Shown: positions 12,381 to 25,348 of the stretch, piece after piece
Layout: each line of letters opens with the position of its first letter
How positions within the stretch are numbered: position 1 is the stretch's first letter
Source of the DNA: Gluconacetobacter azotocaptans
GTDB taxonomy: Bacteria > Pseudomonadota > Alphaproteobacteria > Acetobacterales > Acetobacteraceae
Length of the DNA: 64,000 nucleotides
Assembly: GCF_014174355.1 (NCBI RefSeq)
Contig: NZ_JABEQF010000004.1
Coordinates: forward strand, 62,001 to 126,000
Direction of reading: 5' to 3'
Made by a program: the position numbers and the translations under genes
Notes under the pieces: model-generated
The model's database searches: none
Told to the model about the DNA's origin: nothing
What the model saw: the letters and a program-made list of their open reading frames with translations, nothing else

Positions 12381-13127
12381 ATGCCGTCAGGATTTCCATT
12401 CTTGGCAGCGTTGGTCGAGGTTGGTCTCGCCACCAATAAAGTGGTCCATGTCTATCCTTTCGACACGCATGTCGCGCCACACGACAGCTATCTCAACGAC
12501 ATCCGCATCATCGGTCGCCATGTCTTCGTCACCGATTCCGGCACAGGGGCAATTCTGGTGCTGGATCGCGATACGGGTGCGGTCCGCCGGTTGTTGGCCG
12601 CCAGCCCTTTGACGAAGGCCGATCCGTCGATCGTGCCGCATGTCGACGGTCGTCCGCTGGGCGGCGCCGACGGCAAGGCGCCCCGGATCAACGCCGACCA
12701 GATCGAACTGTCGGCCGATCGCCGGACGCTGTTCTTCATGTCGCCCTTCGGCCCCAATCTGTACCGGGTCGCGGTGTCGGACCTGCTGGACACGACCTTG
12801 CCCGAGGCGGAACTGGAACGGCGCGTGCGGGTGGACCGTCGCGTGCCCCCTGTGGGCGGGCTGGTCATGGACAGCCACGACACGCTCTACCTGTCCGAGA
12901 TCGAAACCCACTCCATCCATGCCGAAGATTCGCGGGGTCGCACCTTGTGGCGGTTGACCGATCCACGCCTGGACTGGCCGGACGCCTATTCGATTGCCCC
13001 CGATGGAACGGTGTATCTGGCCGTGGCGCAGGTGGATCGCCTTCCGGGATTCCATGGGGGGACCGACGGCCGGCATGCCCCTTACCTATTGTTCAGCTTC
13101 CATCCCGGTCAGGGCGATCCGCACTGA
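12381..13127 (+). pseudogene. Major royal jelly/yellow-family beta-propeller, N-terminally truncated
   Basis: The 248 residues cover only the second part of a bacterial MRJP/yellow-type propeller. It begins at the LATNKVVHVYPFD blade, followed by SYLNDIRI, FVTDSGTGAILVLD, INADQIELSAD, GGLVMDSHDTLYLSEIE and WPDAYSIAPDGTVY. Full bacterial members have a signal peptide and roughly 150 more residues before this point; neither is found in the 100 bases upstream. The first codons (MPSGFPFLAALVEVG) do not look like a signal peptide. It is therefore probably a remnant that lost its 5' end, although a cytoplasmic fragment could still be made. Confidence 0.65.
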
Positions 13128-14411: not shown

Positions 14412-15557
14412 TCAGCGTTGCCGTTCGATATCCGCGCCGCCACCCGGCAGCGGGGCGTCGCCCTTGATGGTCAGCGTGGTGCCGTCCCACGACAGGGTAC
14501 GCAGCATGCGGTCCATGACACCCTGAACCAGGATGGACTTGCCGTCCGGCGCGAAGATCAGGCCCTGCGGCCATAACGTGCCCGGTGCCTGCGCCAGCTG
14601 GGTCAGGTGGCCGTCCGCCAGCGACAACACCGTGACGACCCCCCGGTCATGATAAAGCGGCGAGGTCGGGACGACGGCGGACCCATTCTGGGACACCACG
14701 GCAACGAAGCGGCCATCGGGGGAGATATCCAGCCCTTCAGGCGCGTTCGGCACGACGACGCGCTGGATCTCGCGGATCGGCGATGCCGTCAGATCCAGCA
14801 CGGACAGGGCGCCGGGCAGGCCCTCGCCATGACCCAGAATGCCCATGACGGCATAATGCCCGTCGCGGGTCAGGCGGATGTTCCACGGGCCGGGCTTGAT
14901 ATCCAGCGGCTGGGAGTCAACGGTGATGGTATCGCCGTCGATGTGCAGGACGAAGACCTTATCCCCCTTCCACAGGCTGACCAGCGCGCGCTTGCCGTCC
15001 GGGGTGATCGCCAGGCCGCCGGGGAATCCGGCCTCTACCGGCAGCGAAATGATTTTCCGGTCGCTGAGCTTGCGTCCGTCGAAACGGAACCACGTCAGCA
15101 CGCCACCCGCCCCGTTGGCGACCAGCACATGCTTCTGGTCGGGCGTGATGCGCAGCGTGGTGGTGCCGGGGGCGGACTGCACCTGCTGGATCACGCGGGG
15201 CTTCGGCCCGGACAGATCGACGACGCTGATGCGGTCGTCGGGAACGATCTTGCCCTGCGTTGTGTCGGCCTTCGTCGCGGACGACACCAGCACGATCTTG
15301 CCGTCCGGCGTCAGTTCCAGACCGGTCGGCGGGCCGACGACGCTGACGGGCACGGCGACGCTGGACCGGACCGCCCACACCCCATTGGATCCCTGGTCCA
15401 GGACCGACAGCGTATCGGGCTTCAGCGGCTTGGGTAGGACCTGTACCCCGTTTTGCAGGATGGAATGGGCGTCATTGGCCGAAACGACGGTTTCGGCATG
15501 CGCGACGGTGGCCAGTGCCATCGTGGCGCAGAACGTGGACAGGACCCTGAAACGCAT
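14412..15557 (-). CDS. Periplasmic YncE-like seven-bladed beta-propeller protein
   Basis: This 381-residue protein starts with a clear Sec signal peptide (MRFRVLSTFCATMALATVAHA, cleavage after AHA). The rest is a series of propeller blades with repeated ITPDGK, ISPDGR, LTPDGK and FAPDGK turns. The pattern matches the YncE/lactonase-like WD40 superfamily. No catalytic metal site can be assigned, so a binding role is as likely as an enzymatic one. Its promoter must lie in the AT-rich spacer upstream. It may relate functionally to neighbouring envelope and polysaccharide genes, but this is only inferred from position. Confidence 0.75.
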   Translation of the reverse strand: MRFRVLSTFCATMALATVAHAETVVSANDAHSILQNGVQVLPKPLKPDTLSVLDQGSNGVWAVRSSVAVPVSVVGPPTGLELTPDGKIVLVSSATKADTTQGKIVPDDRISVVDLSGPKPRVIQQVQSAPGTTTLRITPDQKHVLVANGAGGVLTWFRFDGRKLSDRKIISLPVEAGFPGGLAITPDGKRALVSLWKGDKVFVLHIDGDTITVDSQPLDIKPGPWNIRLTRDGHYAVMGILGHGEGLPGALSVLDLTASPIREIQRVVVPNAPEGLDISPDGRFVAVVSQNGSAVVPTSPLYHDRGVVTVLSLADGHLTQLAQAPGTLWPQGLIFAPDGKSILVQGVMDRMLRTLSWDGTTLTIKGDAPLPGGGADIERQR

Positions 15558-15804: not shown

Positions 15805-18800
15805 CTATCGCATTTGCGCAAGCACACCGTTCAGGATGTCGGCAAGGCTGGCCCGGTAGGAATCGGGACTGTTTTCCTGCATCAGGCGACGCAGCGCGCC
15901 ATTGCGGACGGTCGTCCACAAGGCGGGATCGTCGTGAAGGGCCACGATGGCCTCGGCGAAACGTCGTGGATCGTCGGTCCCGCCGGACAGGATATCCTGC
16001 CCGTCCGTCCACCCCGTCTGGCTGCACAGCAGGTCGGTGGCGACGACGGGCAGGCCGTAGGATGCGGCCTCGTGAATTTTATAGGGCACGCCCCCGGCAA
16101 AGCGGGTCGGGGCGATGAAGACCCGATGCTGGTCGTAAAGCGGGGCCGGATCGTCCACCGGCCCCAGAAGCCTGACGCGGCTGTTGCCGGCAAATGCGGT
16201 GAAATGGACCGTGGCGCCGACATGGCCCGCCACCGATAGATGGTACGCCGGGGGCAGCAGTGGCAGGATGTGCGTCACGAACCAGTCCAGGCTGTCGTAA
16301 TTCGGCGATCCCATGTCATGAATGGCGCCCAGGAACAGCATGTCCTTCCGTTCCACCCAGCGCCGCATGGTTGGTCGGGGCGTGATCATGTGTCCCAGGA
16401 TCGAGATATTTTCAAATCCGGCCTGCCGCGCCAGGTCGGCGTCGTGCGCGTTGACCGTGACGAGCTGCTGGCAGAAATAGGCGCAGGCCAGTTCGGCAGC
16501 CAGCGCCTCGGGCAAGGGGGGCGGGGACGGCAGGCCCAGCAGCCGCGCGCGCGCGGCAGTGCGCGGGGCGGCGATGCATTCGGTATCCAGGATGAACCCG
16601 TCAACCGGCAAATCGACCGATGTCGCGGCCAGGGCGGGGAGAAGACGGTCCAGATTGTGGGTCCGGCCGACCCAGGTCAGATCGTAATAGCGCGACCGCC
16701 CGCGAACGAAATCGGCCAGCATATCGATGTTGCGGTCGTGCAGGATTTCGACGCTGTCGGGAAAATCACGATAGATCCCGGCCAGGCCATCGTCGGACGG
16801 GCTGACCGGAAAGAGGGTGACATGATAGCCAAGCTCCACCATCATCCGCACGATATCGTTCGAGCGGACATAGCCCGAACCCAGATGGCGCAGCGGGATC
16901 CGATCCTCGATATACAAAATCCGCCGGCGCGCCGGGCGGGCGGCCCGGGCGAATACGGCGTTTTCGTCGTTGCGCGGGTAGCAATAGCGCAGGAAATCGC
17001 GATGTTTCCCGGCAAACACGCGAAGGTTGCGCCTCATCAGCCCATGGGAAAAAGCGCTGTCCGATGACCCGTATTCAAGATGCCGGACGACGATCGCCGG
17101 ATCGTAGACGATGCGGTATCCGGCCTTGCGCATGCGGACGCACAGGTCGACTTCCTCGTAATAGGCGGGCGAGAAGGCCGAATCGAACCCGTCCATGACG
17201 CGCAGGATGTCGCTGCGGACCATCAGGAACGCGCCGGAACAATAATCGACCTCACGGACGAAATTCGCCTCGGGCGCGGTCGGGTCCCGGTCGCGCAGAT
17301 ATCCGGCCGTGGTGCCGTCGCGCCAGATGATCGAACCCGCTTCCTGCAAGGCGCCATTGGTGCGGACCAGCTTCGCGCCGACCGCGCCGATATCGGACGC
17401 CGAGGTCAGCCGGCGCAGGGCGCGTCCGATGGCCTGATGCCCCAGCGTCAGGTCGTTGTTCAGGAACAGCGTGGCCGGCGCCGCGACATGGCGCAACGCC
17501 GCGTTGCAGGCATCGACATAGCCGATATTCCGCGCGAACCGGATAAGCCGCGCCCCGATCACGAAGCGTTCGAAATGGATCGTCTCATCCTTCGATCCGC
17601 AATCCACGACGATCAGGTCGATGTCGCCCGGCCATCCGGCCCGAACCGAGGCCAGCGCCTGCAGGGTCAGGGCGAAATGATTGCGGACCACGACGATCAC
17701 GCTGACACCCGGGGCGCCACGCGGAGTGAAGTCGATGGGTTCGCGTGCATGCAGCAGCATCGCGTCCCGGGCCGTCTGGCGAAAGGCGGTCTTGGTCAGA
17801 TCCTCGTCCAGTCGCGTCGCCGGTGTGGCGGACGGGTCATGTGGGCACGTCGCCAGCCAATGGCGGAAGATATCCGGATATCGGCCGGACTCGAGGTCGT
17901 CCCGAACGCTTCCCGAAGCCTGATACGCACGCAGATCGACGTCTTCATGTGGGCGCCGGTATTCACCCTGGCCATATTTCAGGAAATGCTCGTACCCCGA
18001 ACGGAACATCCCGCGTTCCAGCGCGTCGTCCACGTCAGCGTGCGCGACCCGATAGTATTCTTCCGAAAACCATGGGCCGGCGCAGAAGAATGTCGGCGTC
18101 GGGTTGGCCAGGAAGTGATGCAGCGCGCAGGAATAGTCCCCCGCGGCAATCAGCGCGCCGATTTCCGGGTAGGTTTTCAGATACCAGACTGCATCGAAGC
18201 AGATCGAAACCGTGACCGCCGGCGGGACCCGGGGCAGGCGGCCCATGACATGGTGAAATGGCCCCGCCGCCCCGGCACGCACGCCGTCGAAACCGCCATC
18301 GGCCACGAATGCCGGGTCGAACAGCCAATGGCCGGTCTGTCCCGTGCGATCCCCTTCGGCCAGGTAATGATCGTACCCGTTGCGAAAGCCGCGTGCCGCA
18401 AGGTTCGCGTGGGACAGGGACGGGTCACGCTCCAGGTAATAGAATTCGTCGAACAGCCAGTGCGGGGATCTCTCGTGAAAACCCGTGGTCAGGTAGTGGA
18501 CAAATCCGCTGGGAACGATGTCCTTCGCAATGGCGTCGGCAATGTCGGGATAGCGGGCGCGATACCAGGCCTCGTCGAAGAACCGGTTTGGCGAGTGGCC
18601 GAGGCCGATGCCAAAATCGCGAAAATAAGAGAGCACATCGTCATAGTCGAGGAAGACCATCTGCTCGGTGACGAAGGGATAGGCGGCCAGGTACCAGGCA
18701 GGGTCGAACTCGTACCAGGCGGGGCGGCGGCCGGGGACGGCGGTGGCTTCCTCCTGTTCGGCCCGAGTCACGGCGTGGCGGATATCCGTTTCGGTGCACC

Positions 18801-19104
18801 CCGTGCCCGTTGCCCGGTCGGCCAGGGCCAGGATAGGCGCGGTGACCGTCGGCGCCACCCGCATGTCGTCGATCGACAGGATGTGCTGCGCCCGGCACCC
18901 GGACCCGGTTTGCACATCCAGCCGGAAATGATCGACCAGATAGGTCATCCGCACATCCGCCGGCTGGGCGCAGGCATGGGCGAGACATCGCGTGGTCGCC
19001 TCAGCCACGACCGTTCCTGCGCCGTTCGCCAGCAGCAGGCGCGCCACACCCAGCAGCAACCCCACCAGGTCGTGGACCGTGTCGGGCGGCGAATCGGCAT
19101 TCAT
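15805..19104 (-). CDS. Giant double glycosyltransferase with an N-terminal ThrE-like domain
   Basis: Of 1099 residues, about 10-120 (VGLLLGVARLLLANGAG and onward to ALADRA) resemble the cytosolic N-terminal domain of the ThrE/PF06738 exporter family, without its membrane helices. Residues 130-380 hold several FD-x-x-WY-x-x-YPD repeats, each followed by a HYL-like segment, as in other alphaproteobacterial surface-polysaccharide transferases. A GT2 domain starts at about 467 (VSVIVVVRNH, VVDCGSKD, LFLNNDL, YYEEVDLC). A second, GT4-like domain covers about 810-1099 (RILYIEDRIP, LGSGYVRS, FIAPTRFAGGVPYKIHEAASYG). It is likely a cytoplasmic or membrane-associated bifunctional enzyme for exopolysaccharide or O-antigen. 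ATG 19104 is chosen; ATG 19128 is possible, and neither has a clear ribosome-binding site. Confidence 0.8.
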   Translation of the reverse strand: MNADSPPDTVHDLVGLLLGVARLLLANGAGTVVAEATTRCLAHACAQPADVRMTYLVDHFRLDVQTGSGCRAQHILSIDDMRVAPTVTAPILALADRATGTGCTETDIRHAVTRAEQEEATAVPGRRPAWYEFDPAWYLAAYPFVTEQMVFLDYDDVLSYFRDFGIGLGHSPNRFFDEAWYRARYPDIADAIAKDIVPSGFVHYLTTGFHERSPHWLFDEFYYLERDPSLSHANLAARGFRNGYDHYLAEGDRTGQTGHWLFDPAFVADGGFDGVRAGAAGPFHHVMGRLPRVPPAVTVSICFDAVWYLKTYPEIGALIAAGDYSCALHHFLANPTPTFFCAGPWFSEEYYRVAHADVDDALERGMFRSGYEHFLKYGQGEYRRPHEDVDLRAYQASGSVRDDLESGRYPDIFRHWLATCPHDPSATPATRLDEDLTKTAFRQTARDAMLLHAREPIDFTPRGAPGVSVIVVVRNHFALTLQALASVRAGWPGDIDLIVVDCGSKDETIHFERFVIGARLIRFARNIGYVDACNAALRHVAAPATLFLNNDLTLGHQAIGRALRRLTSASDIGAVGAKLVRTNGALQEAGSIIWRDGTTAGYLRDRDPTAPEANFVREVDYCSGAFLMVRSDILRVMDGFDSAFSPAYYEEVDLCVRMRKAGYRIVYDPAIVVRHLEYGSSDSAFSHGLMRRNLRVFAGKHRDFLRYCYPRNDENAVFARAARPARRRILYIEDRIPLRHLGSGYVRSNDIVRMMVELGYHVTLFPVSPSDDGLAGIYRDFPDSVEILHDRNIDMLADFVRGRSRYYDLTWVGRTHNLDRLLPALAATSVDLPVDGFILDTECIAAPRTAARARLLGLPSPPPLPEALAAELACAYFCQQLVTVNAHDADLARQAGFENISILGHMITPRPTMRRWVERKDMLFLGAIHDMGSPNYDSLDWFVTHILPLLPPAYHLSVAGHVGATVHFTAFAGNSRVRLLGPVDDPAPLYDQHRVFIAPTRFAGGVPYKIHEAASYGLPVVATDLLCSQTGWTDGQDILSGGTDDPRRFAEAIVALHDDPALWTTVRNGALRRLMQENSPDSYRASLADILNGVLAQMR

Positions 19105-19267
19105 GGTGCCACGGGCAGTCTGCTGCATGCGGGGGAAATGGCGGGAGGCTCCTGACCGGGCGGGCGAGGTGGAATTCCAGCCTATCGGCGGCGTTCTTAA
19201 TGTTTGGTTATCCGCGTTGCCGGGGTAGCGTATCGGCGCAATGCGGCATCGGTGACGAGGGGGCAGG

Positions 19268-20377
19268 ATGATCAGGGCAATCGGTTTGATGAGCGGCACG
19301 GCGTTGGACGGGGTGGATGCCGCCTGCATCGAGACCGATGGCGAGACGATCCACGCGACCGGACCGGCCGTCACCATTCCCTATCCGGCGTCCCTGCGCC
19401 GCCGCCTGCGGGACATATTGGACTGCGCCGCCAGCCTGTCGCCCGACGACGCCGACCTGCGCGCGGCCGAACGGGACATGACTCACCAGCATGTCGAGGC
19501 CGTGCGGGCCTTGGGATGCGACGCGGATCTGGTGGGATTCCACGGCCAGACGATCCTGCATCGGCCGGAGGAGGGGCGCACATGGCAGATCGGCGATGCG
19601 GCGCTGCTGTCGGGGGAAACCGGCCTGCCGGTCGTGCATGACTTCCGCAGCGCCGACATGGCGGCCGGCGGCGAGGGCGCGCCGCTGGTGCCGCTGTTCC
19701 ACGCCGCGCTGACGCGGCAGATGCCCCGGCCGGTCGCCATTCTCAATATCGGCGGGGTGGCGAATGTCTCGCTGGTGGGCCAGGACGGCGCGCTGGTCGC
19801 ATGCGATACCGGGCCGGGCAATGCGTTGCTGGACGACTGGGCGCTGCGCCATACCGGTGTTCCGTACGACCGCGACGGAAGGCTGGCCCGGGCCGGCCAG
19901 ATCGATCACGCGGTTCTGGCGATCCTGATGTCGGACCCGTTCTTCGTGCGCGCGGCGCCGAAATCGCTCGACCGCCTGGCGTTCCACCAAGGGCTTGCGG
20001 CCTTGTCGCGCCTCTCCGCCGTCGATGGGGCGGCGACGCTTGCGGCCTTCACGGTCCGGGCGGTGGCCAGCCTGCCGCTGCCGTTCCAGCCCCGCCAGTG
20101 GCTGGTCTGTGGTGGGGGGCGTCACAATCCGGTGCTGATGGACGGGCTGCGGGAGCATCTGTCGGCGCCCGTGGCGCCCGTCGAAATCGTCGGGTGGAAC
20201 GGCGATGCGCTGGAGGCCCAGTGTTTCGGCTTCCTGGCGGTTCGCAGCCTGCGCGGCCTGCCCCTGTCCGGCCCGGGGACCACCGGCGCGGCGATACCCG
20301 TGACCGGCGGACGGCTGGAAGCGCGCGGCGCGCCCGAGGCCGCGATGCGGGTGCTGAACCGGTGGCGCGCCACCTGA
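19268..20377 (+). CDS. anmK: Anhydro-N-acetylmuramic acid kinase
   Basis: This 369-residue enzyme opens the 1,6-anhydro ring of anhydro-MurNAc and phosphorylates it, returning cell-wall sugar to metabolism. The N-terminal ATP motif GLMSGTALDGVD, the FHGQTILHRP and WQIGDAALL segments, the DFRSADMAAGGEGAPLVPLFH signature and the ILNIGGVANVS and CDTGPGN motifs are all present. ATG 19268 follows GGGGGCAGG. It diverges from the giant glycosyltransferase. Confidence 0.95.
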   Translation: MIRAIGLMSGTALDGVDAACIETDGETIHATGPAVTIPYPASLRRRLRDILDCAASLSPDDADLRAAERDMTHQHVEAVRALGCDADLVGFHGQTILHRPEEGRTWQIGDAALLSGETGLPVVHDFRSADMAAGGEGAPLVPLFHAALTRQMPRPVAILNIGGVANVSLVGQDGALVACDTGPGNALLDDWALRHTGVPYDRDGRLARAGQIDHAVLAILMSDPFFVRAAPKSLDRLAFHQGLAALSRLSAVDGAATLAAFTVRAVASLPLPFQPRQWLVCGGGRHNPVLMDGLREHLSAPVAPVEIVGWNGDALEAQCFGFLAVRSLRGLPLSGPGTTGAAIPVTGGRLEARGAPEAAMRVLNRWRAT

Positions 20378-22238: not shown

Positions 22239-23276
22239 TCAGCGGGCGGCGCCCTTCTGCGCGATCAGTGCGCGATAGACGTCGAGGTAATCCTCGGCCA
22301 TGCGGCGGGCGGTGAAGCGTTCCTCGAACCGCTGGCGGATGCGCGCCGAATCCAGCTCCGGCAGGCGGGCGCAGGCGGTAACGGCTTCGTGTTCGTTATC
22401 CACGATCAGGCCGGTCAGGCCGTCTTCCAGTACCTCGGGCACCGATCCGCGCCGGAAGGCCACGACAGGCGTGCCGCAGGCCATGGCCTCGATCATCACA
22501 AGGCCGAACGGTTCCGGCCAGTCGATGGGCATCAGCAGCGCACGGGCACCCGACAGGAAGGCGGGTTTCTGCTGGTCGTTGATCTCGCCGATCAGTTCGA
22601 CCCCATCCCCCAGCATCGGCAGAATCTCGTGGTCGAAATACTCGGCGTCCACCTTGTCGATCTTGGCGGCGATCTTCAGCCTGACCCCCAGGGCGCGGGC
22701 AATGCGGATTGCCTTGTCTACGCCTTTTTCCGGGCAGATCCTGCCCAGGAAGGCGAAGTAGTCGCGCGGTCCGGGTTGCGGCGTCAGCAGCTTCTCGGGC
22801 AGGCCGTGCAGCACCGTGCGGACATAATGCGCCTGCGGCAAGGGCAGGCGCTGGTTGTCCGAGATCGAGACGATCGGCACATGCGGGAAGGCATTGAAAA
22901 CCGGCTGCAGCTCCATCAGGTCCAGCCGGCCATGCATGGTGGTCAGCATCGGCGTGGGCTGGCGGCTGAAATGGGTGAAGGGCCAGTAGTCCATATGGAA
23001 GTGAAGGATGTCGAACTGATCCGCCACCCGCGCCACCTGCTCCATCATCAGCATGTGGGGCGCGATCGGATCGCGGATCGCGGGATCCAGGCGCAACGCC
23101 TGCGGCCAGCAGGCGTTGAGGCGGGCGGAGGTCACGCTGTCGCCACTGGCGAACAGCGTCACGTCGTGGCCCATGGCCGTCAGTTCTTCGGTCAGGAAGG
23201 ACACGACGCGCTCGGTCCCGCCATACAGCTTGGGGGGAACGGCTTCATGGAGGGGCGCGATCTGGGCGATACGCAT
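22239..23276 (-). CDS. GT4-family glycosyltransferase
   Basis: This 345-residue GT-B enzyme has the N-terminal PPKLYGGTERVV loop typical of GT4 members that act on diverse nucleotide-sugars, the central FLGRICPEKGVD and the C-terminal donor site PEPFGLVMIEAMACGTPVVAF (E-x7-E). It is soluble, with no signal peptide. Its role in exopolysaccharide, glycolipid or storage sugar synthesis is not fixed by sequence. ATG 23276 (MRIAQIAPL) gives the standard beginning of the first beta strand; an upstream ATG at 23303 is possible. It diverges from the ABC exporter gene. Confidence 0.85.
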   Translation of the reverse strand: MRIAQIAPLHEAVPPKLYGGTERVVSFLTEELTAMGHDVTLFASGDSVTSARLNACWPQALRLDPAIRDPIAPHMLMMEQVARVADQFDILHFHMDYWPFTHFSRQPTPMLTTMHGRLDLMELQPVFNAFPHVPIVSISDNQRLPLPQAHYVRTVLHGLPEKLLTPQPGPRDYFAFLGRICPEKGVDKAIRIARALGVRLKIAAKIDKVDAEYFDHEILPMLGDGVELIGEINDQQKPAFLSGARALLMPIDWPEPFGLVMIEAMACGTPVVAFRRGSVPEVLEDGLTGLIVDNEHEAVTACARLPELDSARIRQRFEERFTARRMAEDYLDVYRALIAQKGAAR

Positions 23277-23388
23277 GGGGCAGTTCACTTCTTTCTTGCG
23301 CATGAAAGGGGCAGGGGATGCGACCGTGCGACCGGGAAACGGCAATTCGATGGCCATGTGGCCGGGACAGTGATCCGGGTTGCTGGTA

Positions 23389-23411
23389 AACGGGGTGGGA
23401 AAGACCCCGTT
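23389..23411. promoter_or_regulatory. Inverted repeat in the divergent promoter region
   Basis: AACGGGGT (23389-23396) and ACCCCGTT (23404-23411) form a perfect 8-base-pair inverted repeat with a 7-base spacer. It lies between the divergent GT4 and ABC exporter starts and could be an operator acting on either gene. The binding protein is unknown. Confidence 0.35.
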
Positions 23412-23488
23412 CCGTCATCAACGAGGCGTCGGCCGGGGTGAAGTCTATCTTTCTTCCCCTTGATCCGGATAGATAACAGGGTCAAGGC

Positions 23489-25348
23489 GTGGAATTTTCC
23501 GTCATCCACAAGGACGGGACCGGCCGGCAGCAGAGAGGGCAGCCGATTTTGGCGAGCAATATCGAGAGCACCATTTCCGACGACCAACTGGTCCGCTACC
23601 TGGGCCGGCCGCTGTCCTTTGTATTCCGGTATGTACGGCGTCATGCTGGCCAGCATGTGCTGATCTTCCTCTCGGTCGCGGTGGCGGTCGCGTGTACGGT
23701 CGGGGCAACCTACGCCACCCGCTTTCTCGTCGATACCATGACCGCGCATGCGGCGGGAGACATGACGGCGGTCTGGCGGGCGGTCGCGGTTCTCGTCGTC
23801 GTGATCGCGTTCGACAACATGTCGTGGCGGGTTGCCGGCTGGTTCGCCACCTATGCGTTCGTCGCGATCACCGGCGATGTCCGTCGCGACCTGTTCCGCT
23901 ACCTGACGGCGCATTCGGCGTCCTATTTCGCGGACCGCATGCCCGGGGCGATGGCATCGCGCATCTCGACGTCGGCCATCTCGATCTTCACCCTGGAAAA
24001 TCTGGCGGCGTGGAACGTGCTGCCGCCCTGCCTGAACGTGGCCCTGTCGATCGGGCTGATGGTGACGATCAGCCCGCTGATGGCGGGGGTGATCGTCACC
24101 CTGTCGGGCGGGCTGTGCTTCCTGATGTTCCGCATGGCGGCCGGCGGCCGGTCGCTGCATCAGCGCTATGCGTCCGAGGCCTCCCGCGTGGATGGCGAGA
24201 TGCTGGACATCATCAACAACGTGGCGCTGGTCCGCTCGTTCGGCATGACGCATTACGAACGTGTGCGCCTGGGCGATACCATGCGCCAGGAGATGGGGGC
24301 GCGGGGCACGTCGCTGCGCTACATGGAGAAGCTGCGCCTGGTCCACGCGGTGCTGACGGCGGTGCTGACGGCCGGCCTGCTGGTGTGGGTGGTCATGCTG
24401 TGGCACCTGGGGCGGGCCAGCATCGGCGACGTGGTCATGGTCACCAATCTGGGATTCATGATCCTGCATGGCACACGCGACCTTGCGGTGGCGCTGGTCG
24501 AGACCATCCAGCATATCGCCCGCCTGGACGAAGCCCTGTCGGCCATCCTGGTGCCGCACGAAATGACCGATTCGCCCGAGGCGCGGACCTTCTCGGGCCC
24601 GTCGCGGGGCGAGGTGGCGTTTCGCGACGTGACGTTCGCCTATCCCGGCGCGCGCCCTGTCCTGGCGCATTTCGACCTGGTGATCGAAGCCGGGTCCCGC
24701 GTCGGGCTGGTCGGGCGGTCGGGTTCGGGCAAGAGCACGATCCTGGCCCTGATCCAGCGCCTGCGCTACGTGCAGGGCGGCGCGATCGAAATCGACGGAA
24801 TCGACATCCGTGACCTGGACGAGGACAGCCTGCGGTCCTGCATGTCCGTCGTGCCGCAGGACGTGTCGATGCTGCGGCGTTCGATCCTGGAGAATATCCG
24901 CTACGGCAAGCCCGACGCGACGGACGAGGAAGTCTTCGCCGCCGCCGCCGCCGCCGGCTGCCGCGATTTCATCCAGTTGATGCCCGAGGGGTTCGAGACC
25001 GAGGTCGGCGACCGGGGCGTAAAGCTGTCGGGCGGCCAGCGCCAGCGGATCGCCATCGCGCGGGCTTTTCTGCGCAACGCGCCGATCCTGATCCTGGACG
25101 AGGCGACCAGCGCCCTGGACAGCGAGAGCGAGCAACATGTGCAGGAGGCGCTGGACCGGCTGAAGGTCGGGCGGACGGTGATCGCGGTCGCGCATCGCCT
25201 GTCCACCCTGCGCGATTTCGACCGGATCGTGGTCATGGACCAGGGACAGATCGTGCAGGACGGCCCCGTCGGCGTGCTGGAGCGCAGCGAGGGACCGTAC
25301 CGCGATTTCCTGGAACGTCAGTCCATGGTCGTCGAAAGCGCGTTATAG
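23489..25348 (+). CDS. ABC exporter, fused permease and ATPase
   Basis: This 619-residue half-transporter has a six-helix type-1 exporter domain in the first 350 residues, then an ATPase domain. Walker A GRSGSGKST lies at about 409-417, the signature LSGGQRQRIAIARA follows, then Walker B ILILDEATSALD and the AVAHRLST H-loop. It would work as a dimer, exporting a lipid, peptide, polysaccharide precursor or drug; the MsbA-like layout does not fix the substrate. The start is GTG 23489 with AAGG close upstream; about 30 residues before the first helix are polar. The glycosyltransferase next door makes a glycolipid link possible but unproven. Confidence 0.85.
   Translation: MEFSVIHKDGTGRQQRGQPILASNIESTISDDQLVRYLGRPLSFVFRYVRRHAGQHVLIFLSVAVAVACTVGATYATRFLVDTMTAHAAGDMTAVWRAVAVLVVVIAFDNMSWRVAGWFATYAFVAITGDVRRDLFRYLTAHSASYFADRMPGAMASRISTSAISIFTLENLAAWNVLPPCLNVALSIGLMVTISPLMAGVIVTLSGGLCFLMFRMAAGGRSLHQRYASEASRVDGEMLDIINNVALVRSFGMTHYERVRLGDTMRQEMGARGTSLRYMEKLRLVHAVLTAVLTAGLLVWVVMLWHLGRASIGDVVMVTNLGFMILHGTRDLAVALVETIQHIARLDEALSAILVPHEMTDSPEARTFSGPSRGEVAFRDVTFAYPGARPVLAHFDLVIEAGSRVGLVGRSGSGKSTILALIQRLRYVQGGAIEIDGIDIRDLDEDSLRSCMSVVPQDVSMLRRSILENIRYGKPDATDEEVFAAAAAAGCRDFIQLMPEGFETEVGDRGVKLSGGQRQRIAIARAFLRNAPILILDEATSALDSESEQHVQEALDRLKVGRTVIAVAHRLSTLRDFDRIVVMDQGQIVQDGPVGVLERSEGPYRDFLERQSMVVESAL

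Follow-up and report, generated by a model that had tools for sequence, protein, structure and literature searches.

A ThrE-like N-terminal domain on a two-domain glycosyltransferase in one branch of Gluconacetobacter

Can the soluble N-terminal domain of a ThrE-type exporter persist on a protein that lacks the membrane half, and what might it do there? The question is raised by a gene in a 64,000-nucleotide stretch of the Gluconacetobacter azotocaptans genome (RefSeq assembly GCF_014174355.1, contig NZ_JABEQF010000004.1, positions 62,001 to 126,000; henceforth the window). An older survey of the ThrE family, which we take to be equivalent to DUF1212, reportedly discussed hydrolase-like motifs in its N-terminal domain. 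The DUF1212 domain is described in a 2018 paper as "enigmatic yet widely conserved" (PMC6300479). On the minus strand of the window, the frame at 15805-19104 is open and encodes 1,099 residues counted from the ATG at 19104. An initial annotation of this DNA had proposed a ThrE-like domain fused to WY repeats and to two glycosyltransferase (GT) domains of types GT2 and GT4, an architecture that the reading frame, profile comparisons and Pfam matches to the transferases confirm. It is laid out as follows:

15805..19104, minus strand: the fusion gene, ThrE-N-like domain, WY repeats, GT2 and GT4, 1,099 amino acids (open reading frame, translation, orthologues)
18730..19104, minus strand: residues 1-125, ThrE N-domain-like, with the homologous part at about residues 10-120 (profile hidden Markov model (HMM), hhalign, shuffles)
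17905..18729, minus strand: residues 126-400, about six WY-rich repeats of about 43 amino acids each (boundaries by eye)
17035..17709, minus strand: residues 466-690, GT2 domain with NND and EExD-like motifs, outer borders approximate (Pfam PF00535, PF13641)
15808..16932, minus strand: residues 725-1099, GT4 domain, N-terminal border approximate (Pfam PF13692, motif conservation)

Both transferase domains exceed their Pfam cut-offs. PF00535 matches residues 468-587 of the GT2 part with an expectation value (E) of 7.4e-12 and 46 bits against a cut-off of 23.3, and the wider model PF13641 covers residues 465-680; PF13692 matches the GT4 part at residues 920-1059 (E 8.1e-19, 68.7 bits against a cut-off of 27). 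The fusion occurs in five genomes of the genus, and all five proteins keep the NND and EExD-type motifs of the GT2 domain and the PYK(I/V)HEAA motif of the GT4 domain. The former are GT-A motifs and the latter is of the K...E donor-binding type; in both domains, all five fusions retain what active members of the two families would be expected to have. The WY-rich repeats were seen by eye only and match no Pfam model; their motif columns are common to the fusion proteins and to relatives without the N-terminal domain (N-domain).

An N-domain related to ThrE

The resemblance of the first 120 or so residues to ThrE goes beyond chance. An HMM of the ThrE N-domain (ThrE-N) was built from ten Acetobacteraceae sequences, taken from twelve places less two that fell short of the cut-off. 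With this HMM the five fusion N-domains reach 29.0-34.1 bits, compared with 8.0 for the best of 2,000 shuffles and 1.5 for the best reversed copy; among 1,372 tiles of the window, the top three overlap the fusion N-domain and the best other tile reaches 7.5. Conversely, when the ten ThrE proteins are scored with a profile built from the five fusion domains, two reach 31.8 bits and three 16-17 (shuffle maximum 8.0), with 9.5 or less, or no score, in the remaining five. Profile-profile alignment of the two sets with hhalign covers 108 columns and scores 63; the highest of 100 column shuffles is 18.7. Homology between the fusion N-domain and the ThrE N-domain is thus well supported on alignment grounds, if distant. 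The window domain was also searched alone against 299 genomes of the taxonomic family, returning 28 places, of which 16 were inspected: four are fusion N-domains and two coincide with true ThrE genes, matched along residues 6-117 of 128 (E 4.3e-4 and 3.9e-3), both standing among chance matches of similar E-value. Ten further places look, by eye, like RND efflux pumps and hence chance matches.

The membrane half, which the initial annotation had found missing in an architecture it called uncommon, is indeed absent. A joint profile of four fusion N-domains and nine ThrE N-domains, one short of each full set, matches in 51 of 398 genomes of the phylum (the window's own genome included by construction), of which 30 places were returned as loci and inspected. 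By a crude hydropathy count, the N-domain is followed by 2-8 hydrophobic segments in 29 of these 30 loci; the window gene is the sole exception, with none in the next 300 residues. The exporters of the ThrE/DUF1212 family (PF06738, YjjP-type proteins included) share with the fusion a soluble N-terminal domain over about 108 profile-aligned residues, whereas the fusion N-domain lies below Pfam detection, lacks the membrane half and is joined to glycosyltransferases. As the membrane part is missing, amino-acid export by the fusion protein is not expected. The protein most probably works as a soluble enzyme in the cytoplasm.

A ThrE transporter is not evident elsewhere in the genus either. Neither PF06738 nor the membrane-half family PF12821 exceeds its cut-off in any of 14 genus genomes, and PF06738 has no match in the window's own genome; below the cut-off, there are marginal PF06738 matches in five genus genomes and PF12821 in one. 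A strongly diverged ThrE could escape detection, since PF06738 misses the fusion domain itself. The family is sparse in the wider group as well, with PF06738 over its cut-off in 10 of the 200 genomes searched in the taxonomic family and in 2 of the 190 searched in the class. No ThrE relatives were confirmed in viral contigs, and the N-domain has no plasmid match at E up to 1. The initial annotation had suggested that a domain captured in this way could sense a metabolite or anchor a complex. Given that no ThrE part passes the Pfam cut-offs in the 14 genomes, a partner ThrE transporter as the anchor target of the N-domain is unlikely.

Distribution and origin of the fusion

The whole fusion is present in five of the 14 genus genomes: the window genome, G123 (88% identical), G303 (84%), and G247 and its near-copy G215 (63%). 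The G. johannae LMG 21312 protein is 88% identical over its full length. Seven further genomes carry a 43-45% identical protein without the N-domain, and two have remote matches only. The match starts at query residue 116-123 in four of these seven and at 80-84 in the other three (G300, G299 and G277), where the upstream gene overlaps in a different frame and nothing ThrE-like scores. The upstream gene stops just before the start in five of the seven loci, leaving no room for an N-domain. Plasmids of Komagataeibacter saccharivorans, Gluconobacter oxydans and Acetobacter aceti encode relatives of 39-41% identity that match from residue 121-130 and likewise lack the N-domain. Together, these WY-GT2-GT4 enzymes of seven genomes and three plasmids align with the fusion from residues 116-130 or so to 1082-1093 (39-45% identity) and largely retain the GT motifs; they differ in starting near the first WY repeat, without ThrE-N, and in lying at other genomic places. 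No trace of ThrE-N was found at the ten loci of these close GT relatives (L050-L056, L120-L122) in open stretches of at least 40 residues in every frame, the best scoring 5.8 bits. In the whole-protein plasmid search, two low-identity rows start within the N-domain, at residue 31 (H20) and residue 92 (H22).

In a tree of 17 proteins, the five fusions form one clade with 100/100 support. The tree program flagged long inter-group branches and, for two plasmid rows, a deviating composition; both points touch the neighbours of the clade rather than its unity. A single origin of the fusion suffices for the tree, and the combination appears to have arisen once and to have been kept. The suggestion that a domain was acquired by gene fusion fits this five-member clade, the ten relatives without the domain and the lack of remnants in their loci. 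As far as searched, the architecture is confined to one branch of one genus and is an uncommon arrangement of known parts.

The genomic place of the fusion is defined by two genes and a short upstream element:

19268..20377, plus strand: divergent neighbour 163 bp off, an anmK homologue, judging by its sequence; adjoins the fusion in all five fusion genomes
14412..15557, minus strand: downstream neighbour, a lactonase-like beta-propeller gene (Pfam PF10282), at the same place in all five
19196..19211, minus strand: ATAACCAAACATTAAG, a 16-bp promoter-like element upstream of the fusion gene, identical in all five

In G305, anmK and the lactonase-like gene lie about 540 bases apart with no fusion between them. 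In six other members of the genus, recA, a PRK-family gene or its remnant, and anmK are present with neither lactonase nor fusion there, and in G301 anmK stands in a different setting; the comparison leaves out G304, whose contig ends at anmK. The simplest history would be one insertion and one domain gain, in whichever order; loss elsewhere may also have played a part. At L120, L121 and L122, the Komagataeibacter, Gluconobacter and Acetobacter plasmid loci, the domain-less gene lies beside other glycosyltransferase genes, and in the latter two an integrase or insertion-sequence transposases are nearby. Its plasmid location and the proximity of such genes suggest that the domain-less gene moves between acetic acid bacteria.

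The element ATAACCAAACATTAAG is AT-rich and embedded in diverged intergenic DNA (mean column identity 58%). Each of the five fusion genomes has a single copy of its 15-mer core, which is absent from nine other genus genomes, one of them just 87% complete. Nor is the element present around anmK in eight genus members that lack the fusion; it hence belongs with the fusion gene and not with anmK. A sigma-70 scan found no promoter-like site upstream of the fusion gene. The element resembles the CtrA site, TTAA-N7-TTAA. The assignment was dropped, as genome-wide motif counts reveal no regulon: a loose form (WTAA-N7-TTAA) is scarce in this genome, with 15 matches at 12 places against 69 for a reversed control, and a tighter form has one match, as does its control. 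A literature search for CtrA in these bacteria turned up nothing relevant in the portions covered. The open frame extends upstream of 19104 to an ATG at 19377. The Met codon at the position of 19104 is common to all five orthologues, and in G303 an in-frame stop lies 18 codons upstream of its equivalent.

Two further observations concern the surroundings. Just past anmK lie a second GT4 gene and a divergent ABC exporter gene (22239-25348); G305 and the four remaining fusion genomes have the GT4 gene at this position too. At 12381-13127 on the plus strand is a gene resembling major royal jelly proteins whose front is missing relative to a 375-amino-acid homologue in G303 (L097): the window matches only residues 138-374 of that protein, at 90% identity, and the stretches examined from G. 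johannae (L029), G247, G215 and G305 contain no match.

Role of the N-domain and competing readings

We favour, with moderate confidence, the view that the N-domain was captured and serves as an accessory part of a surface-glycan enzyme with two transferase domains. In this scenario, a mobile WY-GT2-GT4 gene of Acetobacteraceae would have inserted between anmK and the lactonase-like gene in the ancestor of one Gluconacetobacter branch and would have gained, a single time, the soluble N-terminal part of an exporter of the ThrE type. The resulting enzyme may add two sugars in sequence to a surface-polysaccharide intermediate, and the captured domain may serve as an accessory module that tunes or positions it by associating with itself, docking a partner or binding a small molecule. 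In favour of this view stand the ThrE-N homology over about 108 residues, the single clade and its domain-less relatives, the common genomic place with G305 as the empty counterpart, the plasmid genes, the retained GT motifs, N-domain dN/dS values with upper 95% limits no higher than 1.04, and the 16-bp element that accompanies the fusion.

Several observations weigh against this proposal. The direct neighbours in the window, anmK and the lactonase-like gene, do not constitute a polysaccharide operon. The portions of the literature covered by our searches describe no binding function for the ThrE N-domain, and they gave nothing on point for a ThrE-glycosyltransferase fusion or for the ThrE N-domain. 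AlphaFold2 models were too poor to use, with mean predicted local distance difference test (pLDDT) values of 50.7 for the N-domain (two sequences) and 28.7 for the whole protein. Pfam makes no ThrE assignment: residues 1-135 match nothing in Pfam or NCBIfam scans, PF06738 matches neither these residues nor the whole protein at E up to 1, and at E up to 10 the five fusion N-domains hit no Pfam family, not even ankyrin. When four genuine ThrE N-domains of Acetobacteraceae were excised and scored on their own, PF06738 gave three of them 55-72 bits and the fourth 13, so the fusion N-domain is at best a diverged ThrE relative. A profile search for ThrE similarity had been named in advance as a test that could refute the resemblance; its outcome is negative in Pfam, which the more sensitive profile-profile comparison overturns. 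The single-sequence signal is, moreover, concentrated in one 22-residue stretch around LLLANGA: with this stretch masked, the five domains score 14.7, 9.0, 7.5, 7.2 and 7.2, the last three falling below the best of 2,000 shuffles (8.2). Selective constraint is also weak. The ratio of nonsynonymous to synonymous substitution rates (dN/dS) was estimated for five pairs among four of the five fusion genomes, G215 being left out as a near-copy of G247. It is 0.37-0.64 for residues 2-125 and 0.19-0.28 for the rest of the protein, i.e., 1.8-3.1 times higher in the N-domain, as fits a weakly used domain.

The main rival reading, which we regard as possible though rather unlikely, builds on this last point: the N-domain would be a passenger, a piece of some ThrE-type gene joined on by chance, which is translated but nearly idle and drifting. 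Residues 2-52 alone are indistinguishable from neutral in four of the five pairs, partly through their short length, and related GT proteins manage without the domain. Drift is opposed by an N-domain free of frameshifts and stops in every one of the five genomes, even in G247 and G215 at 63% identity, and by upper 95% limits of dN/dS for the whole domain of 0.65-1.04, below 1 in four pairs and 1.04 in the fifth. Invariant positions form the runs LLL-NG, TY-VD-F-LD and MRVAP at 48% identity. Together with the shared Met codon, the dN/dS limits make it most likely, as judged from the coding sequences, that the N-domain is translated and kept, but loosely.

A bolder version of the accessory-domain proposal has the ThrE N-domain as a portable ligand-sensing or docking module that, detached from any transporter and in an organism where ThrE is not detected, allosterically controls the two-domain glycosyltransferase; we consider this doubtful. 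Less probable still is a peripheral membrane tether, in which a hydrophobic helix at residues 14-34 brings the transferase to lipid-linked glycan assembly. No other stretch of the protein exceeds the threshold of 1.6 set on a crude Kyte-Doolittle scale (residues 16-34 average 1.72), but the value is marginal, and the helix aligns within the soluble ThrE domain and contains N27 and G28.

Convergence, i.e., an unrelated helical domain with an ankyrin-like LLLANGA helix, is improbable. It would account for the score lying mostly in the LLLANGA stretch and for the silence of Pfam where most true ThrE N-domains score well. It is also in line with a PDB profile search, in which the best matches are designed ankyrin proteins accompanied by a few other weak ones. 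A separate PDB search for a solved ThrE gave none at E up to 1, subject to a caveat on the query. The likeness of the N-domain to ankyrin repeat proteins is limited to the short LLLANGA-containing stretch: it spans 17-46 residues only, at E 0.045 or worse, and is not matched by any Pfam ankyrin hit. Without the strongest motif, residues 39-125 still align to ThrE with an hhalign score of 30.5 and in unchanged register, above all 200 column shuffles (at most 20.7), and two true ThrE genes were recovered, amid chance matches, in the 299-genome search.

Finally, a translation start downstream (e.g., at M53), which would leave the domain not made whole and which had been named as a further refuting outcome, is very improbable and unsupported: by eye there is no good Shine-Dalgarno sequence just before 19104 and residues 2-52 are weakly constrained, but the Met codon is shared by five orthologues, the LLL-NG motif survives about one synonymous change per site relative to G247, and the ThrE-like match spans residues 10-52.

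As an enzyme extension in a genus without ThrE over Pfam cut-offs, the captured accessory domain would show that ThrE-N can persist apart from its membrane half. It would also provide a membrane-free version of the domain to express, crystallise and screen for ligands. If the portable-module version were true, it would suggest that the same domain gates ThrE transport by ligand binding, and the fusion would offer a soluble system for finding that ligand.

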